DNA from: a virus
Direction: 5' to 3' (one strand)
Length of the DNA: 30,855 nucleotides
Virus record (IMG/VR): IMGVR_UViG_3300010885_040366
Span: 1 to 30,855 of that record
This document shows, one piece after another, positions 11,054 through 30,557 of the stretch. The notes beneath the pieces are model-generated. The model ran no database searches and was not told where the DNA came from. It saw nothing but the letters and a program-made list of their open reading frames with translations. The number at the start of each line of letters is the position of its first letter. The stretch's first letter is position 1. A program made the translations under genes and the position numbers.

Positions 11054-11057
11054 AATT

Positions 11058-11531: not shown

Positions 11532-11568
11532 GAGTTGAGATTACATTGTGAAAACTTTCCCGTCAAGC

Positions 11569-11575: not shown

Positions 11576-11588
11576 TTAAAATAATAAG

Positions 11589-11795: not shown

Positions 11796-11844
11796 TAACA
11801 GAATTTGAAGTTGATAAAACAAAAAAATATAGAGGAATATAAAA

Positions 11845-12494: not shown

Positions 12495-12498
12495 TATT

Positions 12499-14274: not shown

Positions 14275-14314
14275 ATTATTTTATGTTTTTTTACAATTTC
14301 GGATCGTCTTTTGA

Positions 14315-15649: not shown

Positions 15650-15761
15650 ATATTTTTTTTTATGTATTTCTACTTACCTATTTATTTGTATTTTATATAT
15701 TAAAAAAATGTATTTACATTTTTTAATTAAAGTGGTTACTCTTTAAGATAAATTTTAGCAT

Positions 15762-16001
15762 ATGACAATTAAAGAATTAATTCAGGTGGTTGAAGATGCA
15801 CACGAATTGCTCGTTGCAGATTTTAAATCTGAAACTAAAAAAACACCAAAAGATGACGATTTACTCCTTCATGTTAAAACGCTTTATAAACAAGGATTGG
15901 AAAATACAATCTTAGAAGAGTTGTTTTTAGATGATTTTAATTGTCCAGAAGACTTTGAAAAACTCGTTTTAGTATGTGCTGCTAAATTAAAATCTTCTTA
16001 A
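15762..16001 (+). CDS. Hypothetical acidic helical protein (79 aa)
   Basis: ATG at 15762 after an AT-rich leader of about 110 nt. Product MTIKELIQVVEDAHELLVADFKSE... is acidic and mostly helical, ending EDFEKLVLVCAAKLKSS. It overlaps the convergent nucleotidyltransferase gene by 20 nt at their 3' ends. No family recognised. Confidence 0.6.
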   Translation: MTIKELIQVVEDAHELLVADFKSETKKTPKDDDLLLHVKTLYKQGLENTILEELFLDDFNCPEDFEKLVLVCAAKLKSS

Positions 16002-16686: not shown

Positions 16687-16756
16687 GATTTTATGAATTA
16701 TAATTTATATTTATATTTAAACTGTATTTAAAATTATTAAATATTAATAATATTTT

Positions 16757-16987
16757 ATGACAATACTTAATTTTAAGTATATATTTGCAATTGTAGCATT
16801 GTTAACATTTTTCAGTTTAGTTATATATAATATTATAGGAAAAACCGATTGTTTCTGGAATATATTCTATTCATTGGGAATTGGAAGTCTTGTTATATCA
16901 ATAGCATCATTTTTATTTTTATATATAGGAAATAAAATATTTTTAAATTCAAGTTTTAAAAAAACCAATAAAAAAATTAATTATTGA
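16757..16987 (+). CDS. Small two-TM membrane protein (76 aa)
   Basis: ATG at 16757. Two hydrophobic segments: YIFAIVALLTFFSLVIYNII (about 8-27) and FYSLGIGSLVISIASFLFLYIG (about 36-57), joined by a short loop GKTDCFWN, then a basic tail (KTNKKINY). Likely an inner-membrane protein with both ends in the cytoplasm. It could be a holin-type or superinfection protein, but it is far from the lysozyme gene and no family is recognised. Confidence 0.6.
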   Translation: MTILNFKYIFAIVALLTFFSLVIYNIIGKTDCFWNIFYSLGIGSLVISIASFLFLYIGNKIFLNSSFKKTNKKINY

Positions 16988-17010
16988 AATATTATTGATT
17001 TGTATTAATT

Positions 17011-17217
17011 ATGATTATGGAAGAAATAAAATCACCTGAATTAATAGAAGAACACATTTATTTAGTTACTAGTAAAGACAAAGATGAGCAAGGAAATTCT
17101 TTGGTAGAAATTGCTCAGTTTAGAAAAAACAAATTTTGGTTTTTTGGTTGGGAAGTTCCGGAACCTGTTGAAAAATTTGAATCTTGCAAAGAATTAGTAT
17201 TTGGAATAAAGGAATAA
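17011..17217 (+). CDS. Hypothetical protein (68 aa)
   Basis: ATG at 17011; ATG 17017 (MEEIKSPELIEEHIY) is an alternative start. The product contains EEHIYLVTSKDKDEQGNSLVEIAQFRKNKFWFFGWEVPEPVEKFESC, a strand-rich acidic domain with a Trp/Phe patch (FWFFGWE). No family recognised. It stands about 20 nt after the membrane protein gene and may be co-transcribed with it. Confidence 0.55.
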   Translation: MIMEEIKSPELIEEHIYLVTSKDKDEQGNSLVEIAQFRKNKFWFFGWEVPEPVEKFESCKELVFGIKE

Positions 17218-17276
17218 AATGATGTAAGTATATTTAAATAGTTTTTTTTAATTGATGGTTGTAAATATATAAACAT

Positions 17277-17516
17277 ATGAGTAAAACAATAACACTAAGA
17301 CCCGCACAAACAGTAACAGTAGAAGAAGTAAAAATTCTTGCCGTTAGAGATCTTTTTGAAGAAAAAAAGATCATTGCTCGCATTAAAGATCTTCCAGTAG
17401 GAGTTATCCTTTGGGAAGGCGACGAAGAATATGCAGCAGCTTCTAATTGGACAAATGAATCTGCACAAGCAAGAGTCGAAGAACTTTTGAATTCTGATTC
17501 TTTGAAGTTTGTTTAA
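17277..17516 (+). CDS. Hypothetical protein (79 aa)
   Basis: ATG at 17277 after a TGTAAATATATAAAC leader with a late-promoter-like word 10 nt upstream. The product MSKTITLRPAQTVTVEEVKILAVRDLFEEKKIIARIKDLPVGVILWEGDEEYAAASNWT... is strand-rich with a C-terminal helix (NESAQARVEELLNSD). The form recalls small tail or head accessory proteins of phages, but nothing specific identifies it. Confidence 0.6.
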   Translation: MSKTITLRPAQTVTVEEVKILAVRDLFEEKKIIARIKDLPVGVILWEGDEEYAAASNWTNESAQARVEELLNSDSLKFV

Positions 17517-17520
17517 ATTT

Positions 17521-17740
17521 GATGGTATCGAAAATATTTGATACCATTAAGAATAAAGCCAAATTTTTACGTACACGGTTCTCGCCGTAGTAAACAATTA
17601 GGCTCTCTGGATGAAAACTTGGAAGAGTTAGTAGTCCCCTGCGATTAAGAACGGTGCTTCCACACTGTTGGGATCGTTGGTATTTCTAGCCGTAGTTCTT
17701 TTTGTATTCTTGGACGCATAATACAACCCAACAGGCTACT
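17521..17740 (+). ncRNA. Candidate structured RNA or regulatory leader
   Basis: No ORF. Pairings visible: ATGGTATC (17522-17529) / GATACCAT (17540-17547); AGCC (17557) / GGCT (17601) enclosing ACGG-TTCTCG-CCGT; AACGGTG (17650-17656) / CACTGTT (17663-17669); TTGTATT (17702-17708) / AATACAA (17720-17726). CTGTTGGG (17665-17672) / CCCAACAG (17727-17734) is a perfect 8-bp match, and TAGCC (17687-17691) with GGCTA (17734-17738) crosses it, so a pseudoknot or a switch between forms is possible. G+C is above its surroundings. Strand is assumed from the neighbours. It matches no RNA class I can name. Confidence 0.45.
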
Positions 17741-17755
17741 TTTTAAAAAAAGTAA

Positions 17756-17783
17756 TTGACATATATATTATTTCCTGTAATAT
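17756..17783 (+). promoter_or_regulatory. Sigma70-like promoter of the metallophosphoesterase gene
   Basis: TTGACA (17756-17761), 16-nt spacer, TAATAT (17778-17783), 21 nt before the ATG at 17805. Confidence 0.6.
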
Positions 17784-17804
17784 TAGCCCCCTAACCCAAA
17801 AATT

Positions 17805-18911
17805 ATGGCTATATTCAACGAAAAGGAAAAACAAAAATTAATCGACTTTGCTATTTCTCTCAGAAAAGAGGGAAAGACAAATACTGAAATTTCAACATTA
17901 TTGAACATTCCTCGTTCAACACTATTTGGTTGGATTGGTGGAAGCACTAAAAAAATTATCATCGAAGAGACTATTACAACAGATGAAAACGATTTGTTCA
18001 ATGTTAATTCTCTTCAAAGTTTATACAACAACATTCAAAGCAAGGATGAAACTATTCTAAAATTTATTGAGAATATTAAGCCTATTAGTTATCCTGCTCC
18101 TGTCAGGAGTAAAGTTTCTCAATCTCCAAATAAAATTGCAGTCGTTATTGGTGATCTTCATTTCGGAATGGAGCATCAACCCACTATTGAGATTTTTTAC
18201 CAAGTAGTTTCTGATTTGAAACCAGAAAAGGTAATTCTCAATGGAGATACTCTTGATATGTTTGCTATTAGCAAATATCCAAAGGACGCTCGACATTTTC
18301 AGTCCCTATCAGATGAACAACAAAGGTATCATAAATTTTTGAAAATTCTTCATGATATTACAGTTGATTGGGATTGTGAAATTCTAGAAACGAATGCAAA
18401 TCATTCTGGAAATAGTCAAGAAGGTCGTTATTGGCGGTACATTAGCCAAGGAATTGGAACTCTTGCTTGTCTTCCAAGGGTTCAAGAACTATTGAGCTAT
18501 CAGAATGTATTTTTCCCACAAGAAGATTGGTGCAGGATTAAACTGGTCGATAGTGTAATTCTACCAACAAATCTCATCGTTCAGCATGGAACGGTTGTAC
18601 GGAAACATGGAGGAATGTCTGCTAGGGGAGAATTTGAAAAGATTCTTGCATCGACATTGACTAATCATACTCATCGATTTGGCTGTTCTTCTCAGCGTTT
18701 TCCTTCTGCTGGTCATCGAGAGGAACAAACATTTGTAAACTATGAGAATGCCTGTGCCTGTAGGTTTGATGTTGATTATGTTCAAAACGCAAACTGGCAA
18801 AATGGATTTGCTGTTGTGAATTATACAGATAATACGATTGGCGTTGAACAAGTTGTTGTTCATGGAAACAAGGCTACCGTTTGTTCATTGAATAAAACTA
18901 TAAGGGTTTAA
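17805..18911 (+). CDS. Metallophosphoesterase with N-terminal HTH
   Basis: A 368-residue protein. Residues about 20-46 (RKEGKTNTEISTLLNIPRST) form a homeodomain-like helix-turn-helix. The catalytic part follows: GDLHFG (116-121, Asp117 and His119), NGDTLD (146-151, Asp148), NANHSG (197-202, His200), QHGTV (His261) and NHTHRFG (287-293, His288 and His290), the metal-ligand order of calcineurin-like phosphoesterases. Phage proteins of this build are often annotated as DNA repair or nuclease-like MPEs; the substrate is unknown. The HTH suggests DNA targeting. Own promoter and full-length motif set. Confidence 0.85.
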   Translation: MAIFNEKEKQKLIDFAISLRKEGKTNTEISTLLNIPRSTLFGWIGGSTKKIIIEETITTDENDLFNVNSLQSLYNNIQSKDETILKFIENIKPISYPAPVRSKVSQSPNKIAVVIGDLHFGMEHQPTIEIFYQVVSDLKPEKVILNGDTLDMFAISKYPKDARHFQSLSDEQQRYHKFLKILHDITVDWDCEILETNANHSGNSQEGRYWRYISQGIGTLACLPRVQELLSYQNVFFPQEDWCRIKLVDSVILPTNLIVQHGTVVRKHGGMSARGEFEKILASTLTNHTHRFGCSSQRFPSAGHREEQTFVNYENACACRFDVDYVQNANWQNGFAVVNYTDNTIGVEQVVVHGNKATVCSLNKTIRV

Positions 18912-18956
18912 TTTTTTTAATACTATTATATCCAATCTAGTGTAAATAGTTTGGAT

Positions 18957-19121
18957 ATGATAACAAACGAATTAACACTCTTAACAAACATTGATAATAA
19001 ATTAGGTCAGATAGTAGATAGATTAAACAATACTACAATAACAGAAACCAATCCAGAAATAGAAACTGAGGAATCAGAAGTAAATTCTAACTCAAGATTA
19101 CTATTGGAAGTAATAGTTTAA
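18957..19121 (+). CDS. Small acidic protein (54 aa)
   Basis: ATG at 18957, 9 nt after a TGTAAATA word (18941-18948); TAA at 19119-19121, one base before the lipoprotein gene. Product MITNELTLLTNIDNKLGQIV... has a heptad-like N-terminal helix and an acidic middle (TETNPEIETEESE). Short coiled-coil proteins like this are common in phage lysis and tail regions. No family recognised; operon placement supports it. Confidence 0.55.
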   Translation: MITNELTLLTNIDNKLGQIVDRLNNTTITETNPEIETEESEVNSNSRLLLEVIV

Positions 19122-19122
19122 T

Positions 19123-19692
19123 ATGAAAATATTATTGCTTCCAATAGTTTCTTTCTTTTTACTGAGTTGTACTGTTTACACAGAAAAACAATCGGAAGCA
19201 TTGTCAAAAACTGTATATGCTGCCAAAGATTCATTGGATTCTGCTAGATTGGATTTAACAGATAACTATCTTACAGAAGCATCCCGAATAGTTCGTCCTC
19301 CGAAGGAAAGAATTGAAATCAAGTCTATATATAAATCTTCTACTATAGAACAAGGCAAAAAAAGAGTTTTGGTCGTTCCTGAAAAATATAAAAATGATAC
19401 AGTAATTGTAGTAAGCTCGATTGAATATGATCAGCTTTTAAAAGACAAAGAAGTATATAAGCAGATACAAGAAGATAATACAAGACTAATAGAAACTAAA
19501 AAAACCGTAGACGAAGAATTAATTAAACAACAAGAATATAATAATAAGATGGTTAAAGATCTTAATAATATGCAAAGAAAGCTAGTGGAAAAGGATCTTG
19601 CCATATTACAAAGAAATATTGTTATTGCATTACTGAGTTTGATTATAGCATTTGGTATTTATATTAGATTCAAAGGTGGTTTAGTATTTTAA
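19123..19692 (+). CDS. Lipoprotein with C-terminal TM: u-spanin candidate
   Basis: A 189-residue protein. The signal peptide MKILLLPIVSFFLLSC has a lipobox ending at Cys16; residue +2 is Thr, which favours outer-membrane sorting by Lol in enterobacteria. The body (about 60-155) is a charged helical stretch with likely coiled coil (KEVYKQIQEDNTRLIETKK). Residues about 163-182 (IVIALLSLIIAFGIYIRF) form a C-terminal TM. Outer-membrane lipid at one end and inner-membrane anchor at the other is the unimolecular spanin layout (phage T1 gp11). It lies directly upstream of holin and endolysin candidates. Topology is seen; function is inferred. Confidence 0.6.
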   Translation: MKILLLPIVSFFLLSCTVYTEKQSEALSKTVYAAKDSLDSARLDLTDNYLTEASRIVRPPKERIEIKSIYKSSTIEQGKKRVLVVPEKYKNDTVIVVSSIEYDQLLKDKEVYKQIQEDNTRLIETKKTVDEELIKQQEYNNKMVKDLNNMQRKLVEKDLAILQRNIVIALLSLIIAFGIYIRFKGGLVF

Positions 19693-19717
19693 TCCTCGTA
19701 TAAACTAAGTAGTTTAT

Positions 19718-20149
19718 ATGTGGCAGAATATTGTAGGAATTACAAAAAGCGCAACAGCCTTTTTACAAAATGGAGTTGCACCCCCAAATACACCAGAGTT
19801 TTTAAAAAAAACAATGGAAGATCAAAATCATTTTTCTTCCAAGAAGTTTTTTATAATTTTTACTTCTATTTTAATGTTAGCTATTCTTTATTACTCAAGT
19901 GTTTTTATTTTGAGCTTATTCAGTTCACCGGAGCATATAACAGCTTATGTAACAATTTTTTCCAAAACTATAGAAATATTTGCGATTATTATAGCTGCAT
20001 ATCTTGGGGTCCAATGTGCAGTTGATTTAAAATATAATAGTTCATCCAATGCATCATCACAAGGATACACAGAAATAATAAAAAAAGATATTGTTTTAAC
20101 TAATAATGCAAAAGAAGATGATTATAATATTTCGGAGGTAGAAGTATGA
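19718..20149 (+). CDS. Holin candidate, two-TM membrane protein
   Basis: A 143-residue protein with a polar N-terminus (MWQNIVGITKSATAFLQNG) and two TM segments: FFIIFTSILMLAILYYSSVFIL (about 44-66) and FSKTIEIFAIIIAAYLGVQCAV (about 80-101), then a charged C-terminal tail ending ISEVEV. Its stop overlaps the lysozyme start by four bases (ATGA at 20146-20149), strong support for a holin role. The leader has ACTAAGTAGTTTATATG, shared with the 25601 gene. No holin family is recognised by sequence. Confidence 0.55.
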   Translation: MWQNIVGITKSATAFLQNGVAPPNTPEFLKKTMEDQNHFSSKKFFIIFTSILMLAILYYSSVFILSLFSSPEHITAYVTIFSKTIEIFAIIIAAYLGVQCAVDLKYNSSSNASSQGYTEIIKKDIVLTNNAKEDDYNISEVEV

Positions 20150-20757
20150 AACTTCCATCACCAAAAGCATTAGCATTAATATTAGAATATGAAGTAGGAG
20201 GAGGCAAATCTTACTATGAAAAATATTTATCCAAACCAACATGGCCCGGCGGGGCAAGTGGATTTACTTTAGGAATCGGTGTAGATTGTGCGTATTATTC
20301 TCCAACAGAACTTGAAAAGTTATTTTATTTTCTTCCAAAAGAACAATTAGAAATCGTCAAAGGTGCTTCTGGCAAAACAAGCCAAGCAGGAAAAGAATAT
20401 ACAAAATTGCATAAAGATAGTGGAATAGTAATTTCATGGGACCAAGCACTTGAAATGTTTAATAACTTAACATGGACAAAATTTTCTAAACTCGCAGAAA
20501 AAGCATTTCCAGAATTGGATAAATTGTGTGATGATGCCTACGGAGCAATCGTTTCTTTGGTGTTTAATAGAGGTTCTTCAATGTCTGGAGATAGTCGTTT
20601 AGAAATGCGTAATATAAGAGCCTTGGTTCCTAAAAGAGATTATAAGGGCATTGCCAAGGAATTGCGTAAAATGAAGCGTATATGGCAAGGTAAGGGCTTG
20701 GATGGACTATTATCAAGAAGAGAAGCAGAAGCTAAATTAGTAGAAACTTGTGTATGA
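20146..20757 (+). CDS. Endolysin: pesticin/T4-type lysozyme
   Basis: A 203-residue protein. LILEYEVGGGKSYYEK (11-26) carries the likely catalytic Glu16 (Glu14 is the alternative), then WPGGASGFTLGIGVDCAYY (33-51) gives the beta hairpin with Asp47, and AYGAIVSLVFNRGSSM (131-146) the core helix typical of lysozyme-like glycosidases; LSRREAEAKL (189-198) is near the C-terminus. It would cleave peptidoglycan glycan strands. There is no signal peptide or TM, so export needs the upstream holin. The GGAGG before the start is also holin coding sequence and may act as RBS. Confidence 0.85.
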   Translation: MKLPSPKALALILEYEVGGGKSYYEKYLSKPTWPGGASGFTLGIGVDCAYYSPTELEKLFYFLPKEQLEIVKGASGKTSQAGKEYTKLHKDSGIVISWDQALEMFNNLTWTKFSKLAEKAFPELDKLCDDAYGAIVSLVFNRGSSMSGDSRLEMRNIRALVPKRDYKGIAKELRKMKRIWQGKGLDGLLSRREAEAKLVETCV

Positions 20758-21005
20758 GCCTATCAAATATATATCTAAATCAAGTAAAACATAATCCGGT
20801 AAATATGTTTAGCAGTTCTTTTGGAGGAATGCCAACTATTGAGAAAGATCCGACTATTCTTGGATTGGAACAACAGCTATTTGACAAATTTCAGGAGATA
20901 AATCCTCCCGAAGAGATTAAATCTCCTATTAACATAAAGCCAAACACCGTGGAAGATGCTATCAGAGAATTATTAGAATTACAAAAAAATAATTCTTTCC
21001 AGTAA
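20754..21005 (+). CDS. Small acidic protein in the lysis operon (83 aa)
   Basis: ATG at 20754 overlaps the lysozyme stop (ATGA). Product MSLSNIYLNQVKHNPVNMFS... ends with a helix (TVEDAIRELLELQKNNSFQ). Asn/Pro/Ile-rich middle (INPPEEIKSPINIKPN). No family recognised. Translational coupling suggests a role linked to lysis or to packaging of small structural parts. Confidence 0.6.
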   Translation: MSLSNIYLNQVKHNPVNMFSSSFGGMPTIEKDPTILGLEQQLFDKFQEINPPEEIKSPINIKPNTVEDAIRELLELQKNNSFQ

Positions 21006-21038
21006 TGCTTATAAAAAAGGATAAATATATGCAAGCAT

Positions 21039-21461
21039 ATGTCAGAGATAGATCCACCCACAGGAGAAACAGAGCCAAAAAGCATTGTCGATAAGTTAGT
21101 AGTATTTGAATTGACTCATCGTGCCTTTTTGAATGTTATTTTCAAACCATTATTGACCGTTATGGTTTTTCTTGCTATGGGCTATTATACTATGTGGTTA
21201 TCAACAAATTATGTAAAAGCAGATAAATTTACTGCATATGTTGAAAAACAAATTCAATCTGACAAAGTACAAGACGAAATTTTAAAAACTAGATTTGAAA
21301 TTACACAAACAAAATTAGAAACAATTATAAATCAACAAACTGCATATACAGAGCAGTTAAAAGCATATAATCAAGTCTTATCTAATTTTCAAAAACAAGT
21401 GGACTCTATTGATAGTAGACTTGTGTATTTGGAAAGAAGAAACTATTCTAAATCACCATAA
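21039..21461 (+). CDS. Membrane-anchored coiled-coil protein (140 aa)
   Basis: ATG at 21039, 11 nt after GATAAATA. Polar N-terminus (about 1-30), a single TM (PLLTVMVFLAMGYYTMWL, about 37-54), then a long helical, probably coiled-coil periplasmic part (VEKQIQSDKVQDEILKTRFE ... VDSIDSRLVYLERR). N-in topology with a periplasmic coiled coil is that of i-spanins and antiholins; here it follows the lysozyme. No o-spanin partner is seen nearby, and the 19123 product already fits a u-spanin, so the role remains open. Confidence 0.55.
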   Translation: MSEIDPPTGETEPKSIVDKLVVFELTHRAFLNVIFKPLLTVMVFLAMGYYTMWLSTNYVKADKFTAYVEKQIQSDKVQDEILKTRFEITQTKLETIINQQTAYTEQLKAYNQVLSNFQKQVDSIDSRLVYLERRNYSKSP

Positions 21462-21475
21462 TAGAATAATATTTC

Positions 21476-21646
21476 ATGAAAACTTTAAGCTATAGACAAG
21501 GAGTTGTAAATACAAATTTACACCCTACTCTACTAAATGGTCAAATCGTTTATATATTAGAAGATAATCAAGATTTTTATAAAGTCAAAGTTTGTAACAA
21601 TTCAAGGGTTGAGATTATAGAAAAAAAATATATTTTAATAAATTGA
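21476..21646 (+). CDS. Small hypothetical protein (56 aa)
   Basis: ATG at 21476, 14 nt after the previous stop; TGA at 21644-21646. Product MKTLSYRQGVVNTNLHPTLL... shows strand-like IVYILEDNQDFYKVKVCNNSRVEIIEKKYILIN, a compact beta-rich, basic domain. Its stop overlaps the -35 of the candidate tRNA promoter. No family recognised. Confidence 0.5.
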   Translation: MKTLSYRQGVVNTNLHPTLLNGQIVYILEDNQDFYKVKVCNNSRVEIIEKKYILIN

Positions 21647-21671
21647 CTTTATTGTTTAGAGGTGATAAGTT
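21643..21671 (+). promoter_or_regulatory. Candidate promoter for the tRNA cluster
   Basis: TTGACT (21643-21648), 17-nt spacer, TAAGTT (21666-21671), 8 nt before the tRNA-Thr 5' end. Confidence 0.45.
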
Positions 21672-21679
21672 TTAATAAC

Positions 21680-21754
21680 GCCTGTGTAGCTCAGTGGTAG
21701 AGCAACGGTTTTGTAAACCGTCTGTCATCGGTTCAAATCCGATCTCAGGCTCCA
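21680..21754 (+). tRNA. tRNA-Thr(TGT), CCA encoded
   Basis: Acceptor GCCTGTG / CTCAGGC (one mismatch-like T-T), D arm GCTC/GAGC, anticodon stem ACGGT/ACCGT with loop TTTGTAA (anticodon TGT at 21712-21714), T arm ATCGG-TTCAAAT-CCGAT, then T-CCA. A complete canonical tRNA. Confidence 0.95.
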
Positions 21755-21757
21755 TAT

Positions 21758-21830
21758 GCGGTTGAAGAGAAACAGCAGACTCGTCTCCCTTTCACGGAGA
21801 AGACAGCGGGGGCAGCACCCGTCAACCGTA
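21758..21830 (+). tRNA. Aberrant tRNA-Glu(TTC)-like gene
   Basis: Acceptor GCGGTTG / CAACCGT (first pair G-T), D stem GAG/CTC, anticodon stem TCTCC/GGAGA with loop CTTTCAC (anticodon TTC at 21791-21793), T stem GCGGG/CCCGT. The T loop is GGCAGCA, not TTCRANN, and the D loop AAACAGCAGA lacks the GG pair, so the usual D-T loop contacts are missing together. No CCA is encoded, unlike both flanking tRNAs. It may be a decayed or unusual tRNA, or a tRNA-like decoy. Confidence 0.6.
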
Positions 21831-21912
21831 CCTTACCTCTATTAGAAAATTTTCATTAAAAATGTATACAGTTTATGATAAGTTGTTAATAGCTTTGATG
21901 CTAAAAATAATT

Positions 21913-21999
21913 GGATGATTAATTTAACTGGCGTTAAACCTAGTCTTGAAAACTAGCGGTGCTGAAAGGCATGGGGATCGATACCTCAGTCATCCGCCA
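21913..21999 (+). tRNA. tRNA-Ser(TGA), CCA encoded
   Basis: Acceptor GGATGAT / GTCATCC, anticodon stem CTAGT/ACTAG with loop CTTGAAA (anticodon TGA), a long class II variable arm, T arm with loop ATCGATA, discriminator G and CCA. Length 87 nt fits tRNA-Ser. Confidence 0.9.
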
Positions 22000-22008
22000 T
22001 TTTTTTTG

Positions 22009-22036
22009 TTGACATTTTCAGAAAAAAAACTATAAT
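22009..22036 (+). promoter_or_regulatory. Consensus sigma70 promoter of the RNA ligase gene
   Basis: TTGACA (22009-22014), 16-nt spacer TTTTCAGAAAAAAAAC, TATAAT (22031-22036). ATG at 22044 is 7 nt downstream, so the mRNA would be nearly leaderless. TTTTCAGAAAA recalls TTACCAGAAAT in the cassette promoters. Confidence 0.8.
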
Positions 22037-22043
22037 ACTGATT

Positions 22044-23057
22044 ATGAAATTAGCATCAGTAGAAATCCTAAAAAACGTTCGTGAGCATCCTAATGCTGAT
22101 TCCTTAGAACTTTGTGAAGTTCTTGGATGGCAAACGGTAGTAAAAAAAGGAATCCATAAAGAAGGAGATATGGTTGTATTCATTACGATTGATACAATCG
22201 TTCCTCGATGTCAATGGTCAGAATTTCTAGTAGATTCTAAAAATCCAGACAAACCAATTAGGCTTAAAAATATAAAACTTCGTGGAGAATATAGTTCAGG
22301 ATTGGTTATACCTCTCAGTGAATTTCCTGATCAATTTACAGAAACTACTGTTATTGGTGAGGATTTAACTACTTTGCTTGGTATTCAAAAGTATGTGAAG
22401 GAAATCCCTGCAAATCTTTCCGGAGAAACATTGGGAGATTTTCCAACAAGTATTATCTCTAAAACAGATGAAGACAATGGGCTGAATGATCCAAATTTAG
22501 TTGAAAAGGTTCTCAATCACGATTCTCATATCACAGTAACAAGCAAACTCGATGGAAGTTCTATAACTCTAATTGTTGAAGATGGTGTACTTACACAAGT
22601 TTGTACAAGGAATCTTTCCAAGAAAGAGACCGAAAATAATACATTCTGGAAAGCCGCAAAAAAACTTACCATTCCAGAAAATTGGACAGGAACAATTCAG
22701 GGTGAACTTTGTGGAAATGGAATCCAACGAAATCAGCTTAAATTGGAAGATGTTAAGATCTTTGTATTTCAAATCAGTGAAAACAAAAAATACATGACCT
22801 ACGAAGAGATGAAAGATTTTTGCGAAAATTCTTTACATTGTGATATCGTTCCACTAGTATGTAAATTAGGTTTAGAAGAACAAATAAAACTTTGGGTAAA
22901 TCCATTGCAAAAACTTCAAGAACTTGCAGACAAACAAAAATATCCAAGTGGTTTAGACGGAGAAGGAATCGTAGTAAGACCATCATCTTATCCAAAAAGT
23001 TATTCATCTCGTCGCCCACTTGGATTTAAACTCATCAACCGAAACTATAAAGACTAA
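22044..23057 (+). CDS. Rnl5-type RNA ligase (DraRnl-like)
   Basis: A 337-residue protein. The N-terminal ~120 residues (MKLASVEILKNVREHPNADSL, KGIHKEGDMVVFI, GEYSSGLVIPL) form the OB-like domain typical of Deinococcus Rnl. The nucleotidyltransferase part follows: motif I TSKLDGSS with Lys168 as the AMP-accepting residue, GELCGNGIQ (220-228), EGIVVRP (308-314) and GFKLINRNY (327-335, motif V). It would seal RNA 3'-OH/5'-P ends. Location directly after tRNA genes suggests repair of nuclease-cut tRNA; no polynucleotide kinase is seen in this window. Confidence 0.85.
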   Translation: MKLASVEILKNVREHPNADSLELCEVLGWQTVVKKGIHKEGDMVVFITIDTIVPRCQWSEFLVDSKNPDKPIRLKNIKLRGEYSSGLVIPLSEFPDQFTETTVIGEDLTTLLGIQKYVKEIPANLSGETLGDFPTSIISKTDEDNGLNDPNLVEKVLNHDSHITVTSKLDGSSITLIVEDGVLTQVCTRNLSKKETENNTFWKAAKKLTIPENWTGTIQGELCGNGIQRNQLKLEDVKIFVFQISENKKYMTYEEMKDFCENSLHCDIVPLVCKLGLEEQIKLWVNPLQKLQELADKQKYPSGLDGEGIVVRPSSYPKSYSSRRPLGFKLINRNYKD

Positions 23058-23058
23058 T

Positions 23059-23238
23059 ATGTATAAACTAGAAAGAAAAGAAAATGCAGGAAATTGGTAT
23101 CAAGTTATGTTGTCTCCTTTTAAAACAAGGGAAGATATTATAGAATATCATGCAAAATATAGCAAATATTACCCGCATACCAATACTTCATACCGAGTTA
23201 CAAATCTTGAAACCGGAGGAATGAAAGTAATTCGATGA
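23059..23238 (+). CDS. Hypothetical basic protein (59 aa)
   Basis: ATG at 23059, one base after the ligase stop; the frame also opens upstream but this start fits the operon. Product MYKLERKENAGNWYQVMLSP... is basic, Tyr-rich and strand-like (WYQVMLSPFKTREDIIEYHAKYSKYYPHT) and ends RVTNLETGGMKVIR. The stop overlaps the next ATG by four bases. No family recognised. Confidence 0.55.
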   Translation: MYKLERKENAGNWYQVMLSPFKTREDIIEYHAKYSKYYPHTNTSYRVTNLETGGMKVIR

Positions 23239-23429
23239 AAGATACATATAAAGAAGCAGCAGAAGTAGGAGAGATTAAAGATCAAGTATCAATTATGCAA
23301 GATGATATATTGGATATATACACAAAAAATCCAAAAGAATGTAAAAACCTTCTCGTTGAGCTTTCAAAAATTAACAAAGAATTGGATGAACTGGATGCAG
23401 AATATGATATTCTTATAAAGCAATTGTGA
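23235..23429 (+). CDS. Small acidic coiled-coil protein (64 aa)
   Basis: Start overlaps the previous stop (ATGA). The product is nearly all helix with heptad-like spacing (VSIMQDDILDIYTKN, LLVELSKINKELDELDAEYDILIKQL), so a coiled coil is likely. It ends the ligase operon; a convergent gene follows after 37 nt. Confidence 0.55.
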   Translation: MKDTYKEAAEVGEIKDQVSIMQDDILDIYTKNPKECKNLLVELSKINKELDELDAEYDILIKQL

Positions 23430-23466
23430 TTGCTTTATAGTATTTTTAATGTTAAGTCTTAAAAAA

Positions 23467-24324
23467 TTAAGCAGTTAGCGTTCTACAATAAGAGGTATAA
23501 TCAACCCAACCGAAGGAATCATATCTTTTAAATCCATCTATGTTGATGTATGCACTATATCCATCGTCTACATTTATAAATGTACCATATGAAACAAAAA
23601 CCGGAGTTCTATTGCTATTGCCAAAATAAAAGCTATAAGCATTTGGAAGTATTACTTCGGTGATCGCAGAAGCAGCATTTAAAATACTTTTTGTAGCAAC
23701 TATCATTTTTGCACTTAGAGGAACATTTACAGGAGTTATATATTGTCTAGAATTCCAAACAATATCAGTAAGAACCCATTGCTGAAAATCTTCAACGAAA
23801 TTTGAACTTACAGGTGCTGTGTTATTATTTAAAACCCAATTAACAGCAAGTCCAACTGCTCCGCAAGTTGTTGAAAGACTTCCTCCTTGACCTCTTCTTT
23901 TTACATATCCAACATCCCCATCGATAGTGATTCCGAGATGCGGCATTACATTAAGATATAATGCACCAGATACTGCTGGAATATGACTAGCCCATGCAAT
24001 TAAACCAACAGTTCCTGCAAATGGATAGCCACCAATTCCACCTTCCATAAACGGTCCTAGAAATGGTTGTAAGGAAACTGGTTGCTGTCCTATATTATTA
24101 TTTCCGTATATAGGAGCATCTATATCATCTGCACAAATTGACTGAGCCATTAAAACGGTATTTGTATTAAAACCAGAAACATTTTTAATAAGTGTTGCTG
24201 CAATACTGCCAAAGCTTTGTGCTGTAATTGCACTTGATAATTTAAAAGAATTTGTGGAACTATTATCTCCCCAACTGTAATTAACAGAAGTAACCTTTTG
24301 GGTATATGTTGTTGGATTTGCCAT
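23467..24324 (-). CDS. LCIB-like beta-carbonic-anhydrase-fold protein (285 aa)
   Basis: Motifs in order: SICADDIDAP (62-71, Cys64, Asp66, Asp67), GGIGGYPFAGTVGLIAWASHIP (95-116, His114), MPHLGITIDGDVGYVKRRGQGG (127-148, His129, Arg143, Arg144), STTCGAVG (151-158, Cys154), and near the end GTFINVDDGY. This order is that of LCIB/LCIC-type beta-carbonic anhydrases (zinc by Cys-His-Cys), so Cys64, His129 and Cys154 are predicted ligands. LCIB enzymes interconvert CO2 and bicarbonate. No signal peptide. The gene follows its paralogue at 24328 by three bases. Activity is inferred; a structural protein reusing the fold is possible. Confidence 0.6.
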   Translation of the reverse strand: MANPTTYTQKVTSVNYSWGDNSSTNSFKLSSAITAQSFGSIAATLIKNVSGFNTNTVLMAQSICADDIDAPIYGNNNIGQQPVSLQPFLGPFMEGGIGGYPFAGTVGLIAWASHIPAVSGALYLNVMPHLGITIDGDVGYVKRRGQGGSLSTTCGAVGLAVNWVLNNNTAPVSSNFVEDFQQWVLTDIVWNSRQYITPVNVPLSAKMIVATKSILNAASAITEVILPNAYSFYFGNSNRTPVFVSYGTFINVDDGYSAYINIDGFKRYDSFGWVDYTSYCRTLTA

Positions 24325-24327
24325 AAT

Positions 24328-25533
24328 TTATAGTAAAGTGTTTTTAAATGCTGTTGTATAGTCTACCCATCCCGAAGAATTGTATTTAGCAAAGCTGCTT
24401 ACATCTACATACGCATCATATCCATCATCAGTATTTATGAATGTTCCAGAGCAGAAATATACATCTGGAGCAAATCCTACACTAGCAGCAATAGCATATG
24501 CAGCTGGAAGATTTGTTTCTACCCAAGATTGTATAGCACTTCTTATTATTTCCGTAGCAACTCTCATTCTATCGGCGGGAGCAGTAGCTAAAAGCGTACT
24601 TCTATTATTCCATAGAATATTTGTTAATGTAAATTGTTGATAATCATCTTTAACAGAAAATGCAAATGATGTGTTAGGATCTACTGCATTTGAAGCCACA
24701 ACGGTTGAAATTGCTAAGTCAACGGCTCCACAAGTGGAAGATAATATTCCTCCCTGTCCTCTTCTTTTCATAAATCCAACGTCTCCGTCAAATGTGATTC
24801 CAATATGAGGAGCAGCATATAAGAAAAGTGCTCCACTCAAAGCGGTTGTTGTATGTGTTAACCATGCAACCAATCCAGTAATTCCAGTGTGAGGATAGCC
24901 TGCTAATCCACCAGCCATAAATGCTCCGAGATATGAAGACATTGAAACCGGAAATTGTCCTATGTTTCCAATAAACTTAGGAGCATCCACATCGTCAGAA
25001 CATATAGATTCTGCTACAACAATGTTATCGGGAGTATATCCAAATTCTGATTGTATAAAGTTTATTGTTTTAGAACCAAATGTTTCTGATAATAATGCAT
25101 TTGGATATATTTGCTGTATTGTGGATGAATAAGAATCGGCGGAATTATATGCCATTACTGCTCCGTATGCTAATGTAATATTACGAATTTCTGTTTTAAA
25201 TTCAAATCCAACGGGCAATTCATAAACTGGTAATCTTCCGGTGGTTGTATTAATTGCTGTCAATCCAGAAATTTTACATGCGGACAAAACCTTTATACTT
25301 TGAAAGTTTCCATCATGCTGTAATTTATCATCAATAACAACAAATCCATTGCTATTGGGTTCATTTACAATTAAAGAATTTAATGCTTTATTAGTTTCTT
25401 GTAAGTTAACTATATAACCAGTCTGTGCGAACAATGCTCGATTTTGATCATTGTTTACTTTTATCCAAGAATTATTCCAACCAACATTTGGATTTATTGG
25501 ATTACTAGCAATTACTGGTGTTAAAGATGCCAT
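24328..25533 (-). CDS. LCIB-like protein with N-terminal extension (401 aa)
   Basis: Paralogue of the next gene. Residues 1-110 are a separate extension (starts MASLTPVIASNPINPNVGWN, Asn/Ser/Thr rich); the LCIB-like part then shows ESICSDDVDAP (175-185, Cys178, Asp180, Asp181), GGLAGYPHTGITGLVAWLTH (208-227, His227), APHIGITFDGDVGFMKRRGQGG (241-262, His243, Arg257, Arg258) and STCGAV (266-271, Cys268). Both end in a matching GTFIN-x-DDGY...GWVDYT block, so the shared part is a whole domain. The extension may mediate attachment or assembly. Predicted Zn site Cys178-His243-Cys268. Confidence 0.6.
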   Translation of the reverse strand: MASLTPVIASNPINPNVGWNNSWIKVNNDQNRALFAQTGYIVNLQETNKALNSLIVNEPNSNGFVVIDDKLQHDGNFQSIKVLSACKISGLTAINTTTGRLPVYELPVGFEFKTEIRNITLAYGAVMAYNSADSYSSTIQQIYPNALLSETFGSKTINFIQSEFGYTPDNIVVAESICSDDVDAPKFIGNIGQFPVSMSSYLGAFMAGGLAGYPHTGITGLVAWLTHTTTALSGALFLYAAPHIGITFDGDVGFMKRRGQGGILSSTCGAVDLAISTVVASNAVDPNTSFAFSVKDDYQQFTLTNILWNNRSTLLATAPADRMRVATEIIRSAIQSWVETNLPAAYAIAASVGFAPDVYFCSGTFINTDDGYDAYVDVSSFAKYNSSGWVDYTTAFKNTLL

Positions 25534-25600
25534 GTTATATCATACTTATCCTTTATAATGTTTTTTATTAATATTATTTTAAAATATACTAAGTAGTTTT

Positions 25601-25882
25601 ATGAATAAAAAAGATTTATTACTTTTAGCCGAAGCATATGATGATGTTGTTGAAAATGAAATTCCATATGAAATTTCTCCGGAACAAGCACTTGAAAATG
25701 AAAAGGAAGAAGTTGGTATGCTAAAAACTAGCTTGGAGAATACTCATAGAAAAATCGAAATGCTATTGAAGCTAATTGAAGATGGGCATGAAATTGAACC
25801 TTGGATGATGCAAAAACTTCCAACTGCATTAAAAGCTATTTCTGAAGTTGCCGATGTTGTTCAAACCAAACACGGCTATTGA
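25601..25882 (+). CDS. Tagged coiled-coil protein (93 aa)
   Basis: ATG at 25601 after ACTAAGTAGTTTT, a leader shared with the holin candidate. The N-terminus MNKKDLLLLAEAYDDVVENE is a variant of the shared tag. The body is acidic and helical (PEQALENEKEEVGMLKTSLENTHRKIEMLLKLIEDG), then PTALKAISEVADVVQTKHGY. Probably a small virion or chaperone-type protein; no family recognised. Confidence 0.6.
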   Translation: MNKKDLLLLAEAYDDVVENEIPYEISPEQALENEKEEVGMLKTSLENTHRKIEMLLKLIEDGHEIEPWMMQKLPTALKAISEVADVVQTKHGY

Positions 25883-25894
25883 TAAATTTTTTTG

Positions 25895-25923
25895 TTGCAT
25901 TTTTAATTATATTTTATTATAAT
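25895..25923 (+). promoter_or_regulatory. Promoter of tRNA-Val
   Basis: TTGCAT (25895-25900), 17-nt spacer, TATAAT (25918-25923), 8 nt before the tRNA 5' end. Confidence 0.7.
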
Positions 25924-25931
25924 TTGAAAAC

Positions 25932-26006
25932 GGAAGATTAGCTCAGTGGTAGAGCGGTAGTTTTACACACTATTGGTCAGGAGTTCGAATCTCTTATCTT
26001 CCACCA
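25932..26006 (+). tRNA. tRNA-Val(TAC), CCA encoded
   Basis: Acceptor GGAAGAT / ATCTTCC, D arm GCTC/GAGC, anticodon stem GTAGT/ACTAT with loop TTTACAC (anticodon TAC at 25964-25966), T arm AGGAG-TTCGAAT-CTCTT, then A-CCA. Canonical. Confidence 0.95.
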
Positions 26007-26018
26007 TTTTTAAAATGT

Positions 26019-26606
26019 ATGAATACGATTAGACAAGAAACTGTTTTAGTTTTAAATAGATGTTGGCAAGCAATTAACATTAAAAGTCCAGCAGAAGCCA
26101 TCTCAATGATGTATGATGATTCTGCAACTGGTTTGGATGTAAGAGGAGAGGATAATATGGTCCCATTAAAGTGGGAAGATTGGATTTCTATGCCTTATGA
26201 TGAAAATTCTTCATATATAAAAACAGTAAGTTTACAAATCAAAATCCCAAAAATTATCGTACTTTCTAATTTCGATAGAGTTCCTTTCAAGCGTCCGAAG
26301 TTTACAACCAAAAATCTTTGGATCAGAGATGGTGGAATTTGCCAATATACCGGAAAAAAACTAACCCCCAACAATGGAAACATAGATCATATAATTCCTA
26401 AAAGTAAGGGCGGTAAAAGTATTTGGACTAATTGCGTATTGGCTCATAAAGAAGTAAATGCAAAGAAAGCAGATAGAACTCCGGAAGAGTCTGGCTTGAC
26501 ATTAATTAGAAAACCATTAGCACCTAGAGATCTTCCAGTAAGTCTTTATATTAAAAATAAACACAATATAAAAGAATGGGATATTTTTTTAAAGGATTTA
26601 AATTGA
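26019..26606 (+). CDS. HNH nuclease family protein with reduced zinc knuckles
   Basis: A 195-residue protein. N-terminal half (VLVLNRCWQAINIKSPAEAISMMYDDSA) is the usual leading domain of phage HNH proteins of this group. The HNH core reads GICQYTGKKL, then NIDHIIPKSKGGKSIWTNCVLAHKEVNAKKADRTPEESG with Asp-His and Asn in place. Relatives normally have CxYC and ACxxCN pairs for zinc; here the second Cys of the first pair is Thr and both of the second pair are lost (LAHKEVN). It may be active without that zinc or be decayed. Starts 13 nt after tRNA-Val. Confidence 0.75.
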   Translation: MNTIRQETVLVLNRCWQAINIKSPAEAISMMYDDSATGLDVRGEDNMVPLKWEDWISMPYDENSSYIKTVSLQIKIPKIIVLSNFDRVPFKRPKFTTKNLWIRDGGICQYTGKKLTPNNGNIDHIIPKSKGGKSIWTNCVLAHKEVNAKKADRTPEESGLTLIRKPLAPRDLPVSLYIKNKHNIKEWDIFLKDLN

Positions 26607-26607
26607 T

Positions 26608-27015
26608 ATGAGAATTTCTTGGAAAGATTATGCTCTAAAAATGGCAGAAGTCACCACTCTTCGTTCCGAAGATCCTTTTATGAAGGTTGGTGCTGTTGTT
26701 TTAAATAAAGAAAATAGAGTTGTTGGTGTGGGATATAACGGACTTGCTTCTGGAAAAAATGTTACAGAAGAGTTTTGGAAAGATAGAGACGAACGCAGAA
26801 AATACATGATACATGCAGAAGCAAATGCTCTTCTTAATGTTAAAAGAGGAGAAGGTGATTTACTTGCGTGTACATTACTTCCTTGCGGTTCCTGTGCAAC
26901 ATTGATAGCTGCACACGGAATCAAACATGTAATATATAATGAAGTTTACAAGAGAGACACATCTTCCTTAGAGATTTTTAAATTCTATGGAATAGAATGT
27001 GAACAATTAGTCTGA
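26608..27015 (+). CDS. Deoxycytidylate (dCMP) deaminase
   Basis: A 135-residue protein. The zinc site is complete: HAEANAL (69-75, His69 ligand, Glu71 proton donor) and PCGSCA (92-97, Cys93 and Cys96). GAVVLNKENRVVGVGYNGLASG (28-49) is the substrate-side block of ComEB/dCMP deaminases. It would make dUMP from dCMP for thymidylate supply. Length is short but typical of the compact phage form. ATG one base after the HNH stop; 3' end overlaps the convergent AAA+ gene by nine bases. Confidence 0.85.
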   Translation: MRISWKDYALKMAEVTTLRSEDPFMKVGAVVLNKENRVVGVGYNGLASGKNVTEEFWKDRDERRKYMIHAEANALLNVKRGEGDLLACTLLPCGSCATLIAAHGIKHVIYNEVYKRDTSSLEIFKFYGIECEQLV

Positions 27016-29454
27016 AATAATATCTTCCAGACAATATAGAATCGAAACGACTCTATCATTGTCTTCCAATACTTCATCTATCAATTTTGTTGTTATTGGA
27101 CCAAATTCATGTTCTTCCATAAAATCTTTTATAAATTTTATAAGATCTTGTGTTTTAATTTTTTTCAATGCTCTTAAAATGTTAGAATCCAATGCACCTA
27201 TCTTGTAATGATCTTGAATTGTGTGTAACAATTTTTCTATTTTTAAATATTGTATTCTATTTTTAATAAGATTTGGAAGTTTATATGGAGTTTCTTCTTT
27301 TTTGAAATCAATTTTCTCGTAATTTTCCAATAAATTTTCGAATTTTGTCTTAAATGGTTTTAATCTACAAAAATTTTTATATCTAGATTCTTTCAGTTCT
27401 TCGTATTGAGATTTTCTTATAGGTAAATTATAATAGAAATATCTTTCTGCTAATATTTTGTGTCTTAGATTTGTACTGATATTTTCTTTCATTTCAAGTC
27501 TATTAGCTTCGATGTCTTCATCGCTATCAGGATTTGTTGATTTCTCTGCGTTCTTGTCCTGAACATATTGTACTAATATCTGCGAAGCTAATATTCCAAT
27601 TTCCTTTTCTTCAGGAGTTCTTGCACCACCAGTAGTTAAATAACTCGCAAACTCATCTAAAAACACCAATAACCCCTTAGCTTTTAATCTTGGCGTGATA
27701 GCCGCCATAAGTTGTTTATTTTTGTTGTATGCGTTATCAAGCGTTTCTAATACAGCTACCATATCATTATAAATACGTTCTTCGTTAGAATTAGGTTTTA
27801 TGTTTTTTAATTTGCTTACATCTGGTTTATATACATCGCCAACTTTTGTACCAAAAGCATTGGCTGCTTTGTTTACTGTTTGTGGGATTATATTAAATGG
27901 TATTGCAAATCCTCCTCGACTCCATGATTCTTGATCATAATCTGCTCCTCTTTTTCTTAAATTTTCCAATTTTATGCCGCCTTTTTCTTTTAAATACAAC
28001 CAAAAATCATCAGCCCATTTACTACCACAGTCGCTTTGTGCTGCTTTAATAACATCTTCTTGCCACCACGAAGAAACCACATCTACTTTATCAGTTGTTT
28101 TTTCTAAGTTTACATATTGTTTTATCTTTTCATAGTATCTATCATTCTCCGGTGTTCGAAGCTGGGGGTCTGATTTAATAATTTTTGTATAAACTATTGC
28201 AAATGACTTATCATAATTAAGTCTTTTAAAAGTTTTATTAAATCTTTCAATTGCTCTTGGAGAAGGTCTTATACCCTTTTCTTCTGGTTCTTGATAAGGT
28301 TGTTCCCATTCAGGAGCCGCAGATATAGCCGTTGCAGTATCATCAACAGTATTTTTTATAAGATTTTGGTTTTGAAGACCAAGTCTTTTATATGGTGCTT
28401 CTGCTACAAATCCTATAATATCTTTCTTAAATCCTTTTTTCTCTGCATAGTCAAACCAACTGGTAGCATCTAAATAGACATAATATTGTGTAGCTCTGGT
28501 CATTAATGCTTCTTGTTCAAAAACATCTCTAAAAACACCTCCAGATGCTTTTCCGTGTGGCTTTACGTTTCCAGCACCACAAATGGTTATACCATTTGAT
28601 AATTTATTTCCTCCCCATAATCCCTCATCAAAAAGTTTTATAAAAAGGTTGAATACATTTCCATTTTGAGTTCTATTAAACTCATCTATAAAAAAAATTC
28701 CCTTTGCATTGCCTTCCATAGCAAGCGTCATAGGAGCCTCTTTTATGTTATAAGTATCTACTGCAAGTTTATCTGCCTTTTCGTCTCCTGTTGGTTCTGG
28801 TCGATTCAATAAATCTGGAATACCCATAATTTCCATAGGAATTATTTGATCACCATTAACTTGAAAAAGTGTAAAAACATTTCCACTTCGAATTTCGTTT
28901 TCAATAAAAGATGCATTCTTTTTAAACTCTGGTGGAAGTTTGGCATAATCTATAAAAGATTTAGCTCCTTTTTCATCAGATGTATCCTTAAACCTTTTTT
29001 GATATTCATCAGATTCTCTCCATCTTTTATATTCAACAGAATTTTTAATCATTTTATTAAGCTCTCTTCCTCTAGCATCCAACCCAAGTTCAGCTGCTTT
29101 TTCATTACAAAAATTATAAATACCTTCTGTTTTTCCTGTAGAAGGCTCTCCGAAAAACAACATAGTTCTTTTATTTTTGTCTGGTTCTTCGTTATAGTTT
29201 TCATCCCAAGCTTTATTCAGATCAACCATTGCCATATGTGTTAACATAGGTTTTAGGTTTCTAACCGCAGCCAAATTTTTTAAATTTGGCATTGGTGCAT
29301 TGTCTTCCGTTGGGTTTATATCATATTTTTTACCAAACATAGCAGAAACCTCTTCATCACTTTCATCGTCTTCTTTTAATAAACGCTCATTATTTTCTCT
29401 TGAAATAATTTTATAATACATTTCTTCTAGGTTAACAATATCATTATTTTTCAT
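27007..29454 (-). CDS. Tagged MoxR-like AAA+ ATPase (815 aa)
   Basis: The N-terminus MKNNDIVNLEEMYYKIISRE is the shared tag, followed by an acidic stretch (ERLLKEDDESDEE). AAA+ core: Walker A GEPSTGKT (103-110 region), a long insert (about 120-240), Walker B GIFFIDEFNR (252-261), and sensor-1-like ICGAGN (291-296). Residues about 400-815 form a large helical C-terminal part rich in Lys and Glu. The downstream partner is the VWA protein in the same operon, the usual MoxR/VWA pairing for protein remodelling or metal insertion. The tag suggests that the ATPase is targeted to, or processed with, virion-type proteins. Confidence 0.8.
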   Translation of the reverse strand: MKNNDIVNLEEMYYKIISRENNERLLKEDDESDEEVSAMFGKKYDINPTEDNAPMPNLKNLAAVRNLKPMLTHMAMVDLNKAWDENYNEEPDKNKRTMLFFGEPSTGKTEGIYNFCNEKAAELGLDARGRELNKMIKNSVEYKRWRESDEYQKRFKDTSDEKGAKSFIDYAKLPPEFKKNASFIENEIRSGNVFTLFQVNGDQIIPMEIMGIPDLLNRPEPTGDEKADKLAVDTYNIKEAPMTLAMEGNAKGIFFIDEFNRTQNGNVFNLFIKLFDEGLWGGNKLSNGITICGAGNVKPHGKASGGVFRDVFEQEALMTRATQYYVYLDATSWFDYAEKKGFKKDIIGFVAEAPYKRLGLQNQNLIKNTVDDTATAISAAPEWEQPYQEPEEKGIRPSPRAIERFNKTFKRLNYDKSFAIVYTKIIKSDPQLRTPENDRYYEKIKQYVNLEKTTDKVDVVSSWWQEDVIKAAQSDCGSKWADDFWLYLKEKGGIKLENLRKRGADYDQESWSRGGFAIPFNIIPQTVNKAANAFGTKVGDVYKPDVSKLKNIKPNSNEERIYNDMVAVLETLDNAYNKNKQLMAAITPRLKAKGLLVFLDEFASYLTTGGARTPEEKEIGILASQILVQYVQDKNAEKSTNPDSDEDIEANRLEMKENISTNLRHKILAERYFYYNLPIRKSQYEELKESRYKNFCRLKPFKTKFENLLENYEKIDFKKEETPYKLPNLIKNRIQYLKIEKLLHTIQDHYKIGALDSNILRALKKIKTQDLIKFIKDFMEEHEFGPITTKLIDEVLEDNDRVVSILYCLEDIISD

Positions 29455-29504
29455 ACTTTATACTTTATTTATCTTAACTATATATTTATTCTACATTTAT
29501 TTTT

Positions 29505-30557
29505 TTAGGAATGAGGAACATCTGCCGTATATACTTTCATTAATGGAGATAATTTTTCAATTCCAGATTTAAGACTATAGCTATCTGCACATATTAATGC
29601 TATTTTTTCATTAGCAGTCGGAACTTTTGGACTATCTTCAACACCACCATCCGTAAAGACTAAAAATCCGTCTAATGGTTCCATTCGTTGAGATTTTATA
29701 TAGTTTGTAACATTTGATATATTAGTTCCCCCCCATTTTATATCTAAAGCACCAAATAATAAACTTTTTAGTTTTTTCTTATCGCTTACTAATTGAAACA
29801 ATACATTACTATCCTTAATATGTTTATTATTTGATGAAAATTCTTCTGTAGTATCTATTTCTATATGAGCATAAACCCTTGTATCAAAAAATAAAACAGT
29901 TAGAACAACCTGACTCAATTGCATTGCTATCTTATATATTTCGCTTAAAAATATATTTAATACATCACTACCAACAGATCCACTAGTATCTACGGCTATG
30001 ACGGTTCTTAGTAAATCTTCTTCTCCTACTTCTCTATAAGATGGTTCATATATATAAGATCCAATATATCTAGTATCTGGTCTGTTTCTTAATTCTTCAA
30101 TTTTTGGTGTTTTGTCCATCATTCTATACAAAACACCTTGCCAATCAATTTTTAAAGGAGTATATTTTCTATTAAATCTACTGCTTCCACTGCCGCTATC
30201 ATTCGATCTTCCGATTCCACTTTCTTTTAATCTTTCCTCTTCTTCTCTTTCAATCCTAGCGGCTATTTCTTCTACATCTGAATTTATTTGAGATTGGGAT
30301 TTTTCTCTTTCTTCTTTAGATTTTCTAGTATATTGCGGATTTCCTTTATATTTTTCTGGAAGATCGGTTACCTCTACCTCATCATCTTTTCCTAAATGAG
30401 AATCAAGACCCGGAACATGTATATCTTTATCTAAAATATCTTTTAGAGTGGGTGGTTTTGATTTACCGCTTTTAGAACCTTCGGGACCAACAGGACTATC
30501 TTTAGGTTGTTTTCTATACACCTGAATATCATTTATATTGTATGTTTTAGTTTTCAT
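29505..30557 (-). CDS. VWA domain protein, partner of the MoxR-like ATPase
   Basis: A 350-residue protein. Residues 1-130 are low-complexity and charged (Lys/Ser/Glu-rich, with SGIGRSNDSGSGSSRFNRK). The VWA-like domain follows: VIAVDTSGSVGSD (186-198) gives the MIDAS Asp190, Ser192 and Ser194; GGTNISN has Thr278; FLVFTDGG (298-305) has Asp303. All metal ligands are present, so it should bind Mg2+. Paired VWA and MoxR ATPases act together on client proteins. It lies 50 nt upstream of the ATPase gene (minus strand) and 4 nt after the GEGK gene. Confidence 0.8.
   Translation of the reverse strand: MKTKTYNINDIQVYRKQPKDSPVGPEGSKSGKSKPPTLKDILDKDIHVPGLDSHLGKDDEVEVTDLPEKYKGNPQYTRKSKEEREKSQSQINSDVEEIAARIEREEEERLKESGIGRSNDSGSGSSRFNRKYTPLKIDWQGVLYRMMDKTPKIEELRNRPDTRYIGSYIYEPSYREVGEEDLLRTVIAVDTSGSVGSDVLNIFLSEIYKIAMQLSQVVLTVLFFDTRVYAHIEIDTTEEFSSNNKHIKDSNVLFQLVSDKKKLKSLLFGALDIKWGGTNISNVTNYIKSQRMEPLDGFLVFTDGGVEDSPKVPTANEKIALICADSYSLKSGIEKLSPLMKVYTADVPHS

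Follow-up and report, generated by a model that had tools for sequence, protein, structure and literature searches.

LCIB-type proteins of a giant T4-like phage and a phage-only clade with links to virion genes

Gene pair and source genome

The window analysed here, an IMG/VR record of 30,855 bases, carries two adjacent genes on its minus strand, P0002 (401 aa) and P0001 (285 aa), which a first-pass annotation had singled out as encoding paralogues with the motif set of LCIB-type carbonic anhydrases (Table 1). The ORF list bears out both genes, and the motifs read as quoted in that annotation: SIC(S/A)DD, GGxxGYP, PH(L/I)GIT, RRGQGG and S(S/T)TCGA, a set far beyond chance. P0002 is upstream, and a gap of 3 nt separates it from P0001 on the same strand, so the two are probably co-transcribed. 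Over 252 residues, the two proteins share 45% identity.

Members of the LCIB family are known in bacteria and in the CO2-concentrating mechanisms of algae. The proposed HMM check gave scores of 90.9 bits for P0001 and 109.5 bits for P0002 against PF18599 (LCIB_C_CA; curated Pfam cut-off, 25 bits), and P0002 matches LCIB chains in the PDB by sequence at 1e-16 to 3e-8. Together with the fold described below, this establishes both as LCIB-family members. Neither protein has a family match in PHROGs, and P0002 has no match in annotated phage records. One paralogue, P0002, does carry an extension, as first described; its length is approximately 116–132 residues, not 110. No relative of this N-terminus was found in viral contigs, phage records or the PDB.

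Table 1. Features of the LCIB-type gene pair (positions in the window)
Feature	Position	Strand	Basis
P0001, 285 aa, faster-evolving LCIB-type paralogue without extension	23467..24324	-	PF18599, 9.2e-26
Inferred metal site of P0001	23863..24135	-	Cys64 24133-24135, His129 23938-23940, Cys154 23863-23865; alignment
His114 of P0001, counterpart of P0002 His227	23983-23985	-	Alignment
P0002, 401 aa, LCIB-type with N-terminal extension	24328..25533	-	ORF; PF18599, 1.9e-31 over residues 155-381
LCIB domain of P0002, residues 133-401, beta-carbonic-anhydrase fold	24328..25137	-	AlphaFold2 and Foldseek
Inferred metal site of P0002	24730..25002	-	Cys178 25000-25002, His243 24805-24807, Cys268 24730-24732
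Catalytic-site His227 of P0002	24853-24855	-	Alignment, including PtLCIB4
N-terminal extension of P0002, residues 1-132, unique to the window phage	25138..25533	-	Full-length model, pLDDT <50
Late-type promoter-like element GATAAGTAT, just upstream of P0002 start	25542..25550	-	TAA[AG]TA motif

A second record, G001 (202,880 bases), matches the window along its length at 99.97–100% identity; window positions 7743–10622 match the end of G001 and positions 10500–30499 its beginning. The ends of G001 overlap by 123 bases, so the genome closes at approximately 202,757 bases. Among its products are a T4-type major capsid protein (phrog_138, 8e-91) and, from the same contig, a tail sheath (phrog_23, 3e-66), in keeping with the phage origin claimed at the outset, and the window derives from a giant T4-like phage whose genome is complete. 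Its nearest known counterparts among T4-like phages are 30–35% identical, the closest known capsid and polymerase being cyanomyovirus-like. Genes neighbouring the LCIB pair encode an endolysin, an RNA ligase, an HNH endonuclease, a dCMP deaminase, an ATPase and a VWA-domain protein. At window positions 27007–30557 the large ATPase gene (phrog_1297) adjoins that of the VWA-like protein (DUF2201), an arrangement that recalls a MoxR–VWA pair.

The sequence ahead of P0002, GGATAAGTATGATATAAC-ATG, carries the TAA[AG]TA hexamer. In G001 this motif closely precedes 18 of the 32 genes in structural regions and 25 of 98 genes elsewhere (Fisher p = 0.002, an optimistic value, as the motif was picked by eye from the same data), and is thus also found ahead of many non-structural genes.

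Fold and metal site

An initial model built from 14 full-length sequences was poor overall (pLDDT 57) and was superseded by a domain-only AlphaFold2 model of P0002 residues 133–401, for which 32 aligned sequences were used (pLDDT 80.6, pTM 0.83; poor confidence in model residues 55–82). In the fold comparison that had been suggested as a check, the top Foldseek match of this model is PtLCIB4 of Phaeodactylum tricornutum (5b5y; 8.1e-13, TM 0.81), followed by 6kfs, then the Chlamydomonas proteins and then classical beta-carbonic anhydrases at approximately 1e-2. All seven matches with E < 0.001 are LCIB-family structures; the domain model has the LCIB variant of the beta-carbonic-anhydrase fold. 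Nothing in the viral structure library matched the domain model.

When 35 phage proteins, all distinct, were aligned with 23 cellular ones, Cys178, Asp180, His227, His243, Arg257, Cys268 and Gly269 (P0002 numbering) proved invariant throughout (35/35 and 23/23). The metal-binding histidine we take to be His243 in P0002 and His129 in P0001, by alignment to PtLCIB4. The ligand-bearing blocks of the domain model have mean pLDDT values of approximately 63–92. Given the fold match to PtLCIB4, the Cys and His residues, which the first-pass annotation expected to converge, are unlikely to lie far apart. The first-pass motif list, correct in what it gave, omitted the second conserved histidine (His227 in P0002, His114 in P0001). 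With a PtLCIB4 numbering offset derived by hand, P0002 His227 aligns with PtLCIB4 His88, mutated in PDB 5b5z, and Ser179 with Ser47, mutated (S47R) in PDB 5b60. At the latter position 34 phage proteins have Ser, P0001 has Ala and none has Arg.

Several features are restricted to the phage proteins. All have Asp181 in place of Glu (CSDD for CSDE), 34 of the 35 have Thr in place of Pro after the site His, and an NIG[QE]xP loop is present in 33 of 35, compared with none of the 23 cellular proteins. The phage loop between CSD and GG is eight residues longer than that of cellular relatives. Absence of the Arg after CSDE(V)xRP was considered as a signal of lost activity and rejected, since cellular members from Bacteroidota also lack it.

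PtLCIB4 (5b5y, 5b5z, 5b60) is the closest known structure, with the Cys, Asp, two His, Arg and Cys-Gly all aligned, and P0002 has Ser, not Arg, after the first Cys. The two differ in overall sequence (approximately 23% identity) and in their N-terminal parts, in the longer CSD–GG loop and the Asp and (in nearly all) Thr replacements of the phage proteins, and in that P0002 is a phage gene product. Chlamydomonas LCIB and LCIC (5k5w, 5b5x) belong to the same family, and as two paralogues resemble the pair described here; they are more distant (16–17% identity, TM 0.63–0.67) and serve a chloroplast CO2-concentrating mechanism. Bacterial LCIB proteins (6kfs, 9vzj and loci L103, L104 and L107–L136) share the metal and active-site residues of the phage proteins and a C-terminal (V/I)INT motif, but are short, single-domain cellular proteins of approximately 230–290 aa and lack the NIG[QE] loop.

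Phage clade and genomic setting

Scans of IMG/VR yielded 22 and then 49 loci, and PF18599 scored above the cut-off in all 44 related records tested. Many uncultured phages besides the window phage carry the LCIB metal site and fold, in a clade of at least 35 distinct proteins that the first-pass annotation had overlooked. In a tree that includes cellular LCIBs, the phage proteins fall on one side of a branch with 100/100 support. P0001 and P0002 are sisters in the phage-only tree (94/90), in agreement with their description as paralogues, with branch lengths of 1.41 and 0.46, respectively. They are unpaired in the mixed tree; this may be long-branch attraction, because the pairing appears once the cellular rows are removed.

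When 84,980 bacterial and archaeal genomes were scanned for the phage signatures, no relative turned up, and a prophage or host origin of the clade was rejected on this ground. No plasmid relatives were found. Locus L103 is from a Bacteroidetes MAG, and of 396 genomes from its phylum, 35 contain PF18599. In the cellular loci L103 and L104, the LCIB genes adjoin those of a PEP carboxylase and a SulP-type permease, respectively (both named by eye), a neighbourhood that fits a bicarbonate role in bacteria. The earlier statement that no phage member had been described holds for annotated phages, PHROGs, the viral structure library and the open-licence literature, in none of which a phage LCIB protein was found.

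In 16 crAss-like contigs, several of them near-identical, the LCIB gene occupies a fixed slot in the head module, with genes for the portal (phrog_6547, 2e-91), the major capsid protein (phrog_11589, 1e-32; also phiCrAss001 capsid protein gp32, 7e-4), a ring or structural protein (virion structural protein phrog_29507) and the virion proteins that follow lying within one to eight genes of it. Leptolyngbya phage Lbo-JY46 and Cellulophaga phage phi17:2 have the same gene order; there the LCIB gene is absent and the genes flanking the slot are directly adjacent. Small Lys-rich genes (WTRKEGKDPKGGLNAKG...) surround the LCIB gene in this crAss-like slot (L006 10813–11091 and equivalents).

Among T4-like contigs, the LCIB gene of L011 and L014 has the major capsid gene on one side and neck or sheath genes on the other, and that of L017, a shorter, cut contig, lies beside a neck gene. 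The N-terminus of the L014 and L017 proteins, ANLTLRxTKGSALTxxEMDGNFEYFTGSY, is common to neighbouring fibre-like proteins, and that of the L011 and L018 proteins to short neighbouring proteins; both are presumably of fibre type. In L059 and L060, the LCIB domain is inserted at approximately residue 113 of a conserved phage protein of approximately 500 aa. This protein has 255 relatives, and all 23 that were measured lack the domain and are 492–507 aa long; no family annotation was found for it. Its gene sits between a capsid gene and a gp5-like gene, the start of which, in our reading, resembles T4 gp5. Other contigs, such as L092 and L100, have mixed neighbours, including glycosyltransferase-like genes and a DNA polymerase.

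Altogether, at least five unrelated N-termini precede the same LCIB domain. Comparison of solved structures with the P0002 N-terminus, the L011 N-terminus and a crAss-group N-terminal profile recognized no anchor domain, and no relatives of the L044 host protein or of the TKGS fibre protein were found in annotated phages.

Possible functions

The phage proteins have the LCIB fold, family membership and intact metal-site residues, they form a phage-only clade, and in several related lineages they lie in a virion-module context or occur as fusions. A virion role is suggested because the domain is encoded in relatives among, and sometimes fused to, particle-building genes. For the family as a whole, such a role is the simplest account of the head-module slots, the shared fibre-type N-termini and the domain insertion, and it suggests that phages display the LCIB domain on particles rather than use it solely within the cell. 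The first-pass annotation had proposed either reuse as a virion protein or the handling of inorganic carbon or pH; of these, the former is much better supported in the relatives.

For the window pair, evidence points in both directions. The late-type motif at P0002 and kinship are counted in favour of a virion role, and the non-virion genes immediately beside the pair weaken it, as do the placement of the L092 and L100 genes and the missing family annotation of the protein that carries the insertion in L059 and L060. Structural-module location is found in the crAss-like and several T4-like relatives and is absent in the window phage; likewise, N-termini are shared in L014 and L017, and the domain is joined to a phage protein by insertion in L059 and L060, with no counterpart for the N-terminus of P0002 itself. 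On the whole, P0001 and P0002 are LCIB-type, predicted zinc-protein domains, probably made late in infection and built into or carried with the particle. In such an arrangement, the N-terminus of P0002, of some 130 residues, would be the particle-attachment part, a virion anchor by analogy only, and P0001 could join P0002 to form a dimer or hetero-oligomer, as with LCIB and LCIC. Zinc would be bound at the Cys-His-Cys site.

The reading we favour is that phage particles make use of an LCIB-type metalloenzyme domain, with putative CO2 hydration. The site may be catalytic once the particle has come close to the cell or entered it, interconverting CO2 and HCO3-, or the phage-specific loop may permit a shifted reaction. 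Carried further, phages of at least two kinds, T4-like and crAss-like, might repeatedly have attached an active carbonic-anhydrase-type enzyme to capsid or tail parts, where, during entry, it would alter pH or the levels of CO2 or bicarbonate around the cell surface, or act on another substrate by way of the loop; we regard this full version as tentative, with the balance somewhat against it.

Enzyme-bearing tail fibres and tailspikes offer a parallel, as they likewise place a catalytic-type domain behind interchangeable virion N-termini. Those known act on polysaccharides or peptidoglycan. No description of a carbonic-anhydrase fold on such structures was found in open-licence papers. The head-fibre and auxiliary capsid proteins of crassvirus phiCrAss001 are surface proteins, some of them dimeric, whose genes belong to a head module of this type (PMC10172136); the N-terminal profile of the phage LCIB proteins differs in matching no solved structure by sequence.

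A sub-case of the virion reading, whose probability overlaps that of the reading as a whole, is that the LCIB fold has been exapted as a non-catalytic binding or decoration module with a structural metal, for example as the tip of a fibre on the head or tail, with a surface glycan or carboxylate as its ligand. The virion context in relatives is consistent with this, as are the recurrent swapping of N-termini, which is typical of adhesion modules, the phage-specific NIG[QE]xP loop beside the site (where model confidence is low) and the change from E to D after the first Asp in all phages. A metal site can also persist without activity in this family, Chlamydomonas LCIB and LCIC being inactive in vitro. 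Nevertheless, a scaffold would not need the whole set of metal and active-site residues, including the equivalent of PtLCIB4 His88, to stay unchanged across so deep a phage clade, and we consider this sub-case less likely than not.

It is less likely still that the genes are auxiliary metabolic genes for a pair of carbonic anhydrases that act inside the infected cell and maintain favourable CO2/bicarbonate or pH there, for instance for the carboxylation steps of nucleotide synthesis. Such a role is compatible with late expression, with the complete LCIB active-site set, with the position of the window pair among genes of nucleotide and RNA metabolism, where a stand-alone enzyme gene unconnected to the virion is possible, and with the bicarbonate-linked genes beside the cellular LCIB genes of L103 and L104. 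It leaves unexplained the head-module slot, the fibre-type N-termini shared with neighbours and the insertion, and in the fused and head-module relatives the gene does not stand alone. A cyanophage-type auxiliary gene was rejected, as no photosystem gene of the psbA family (PF00124) was present in any of 24 records.

Finally, delivery as cargo, in which the head or tail would carry the carbonic anhydrase and release it into the host to act in the first minutes of infection, is improbable: crassvirus virions do store and eject cargo proteins (PMC10172136), and crAss-like relatives have the LCIB gene in their virion module, but the fusions and shared N-termini look like surface appendages and ejection has no direct support.

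A phage clade tied to particle genes is a third setting for the LCIB family, and this type of enzyme fold is, as far as could be found, not known on phage particles. With this clade, the importance of inorganic carbon or local pH for phage entry becomes accessible to experiment, and L059 and L060 provide a clear example of an enzyme domain inserted into a conserved phage protein. The clade also cautions that a family name alone is no ground for labelling such genes 'auxiliary metabolic'.

Other features of the genome were noted. Many otherwise unrelated proteins of the window and G001 open with a common N-terminal tag, e.g. MKTKDTILLEQAYEKV (window 12117, 13606, 14315, 25601 and 27007; G001 20063, 182611, 183376, 183791, 185438 and 185868), which may be a targeting or packaging signal akin to a capsid-targeting sequence. 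Window positions 3962–9166 contain several imperfect direct repeats of approximately 140–185 bases in a more GC-rich stretch (0.40–0.45). A TnpB-like protein (IS605 OrfB type, named by eye) is encoded at G001 32680–33942, with the late-type motif upstream. Shine–Dalgarno-like sequences precede only 16 of 226 ORFs of G001, and TTGAC..TAnnnT promoters lie within 60 bases ahead of 18 ORFs; these are a possible hint to the host.
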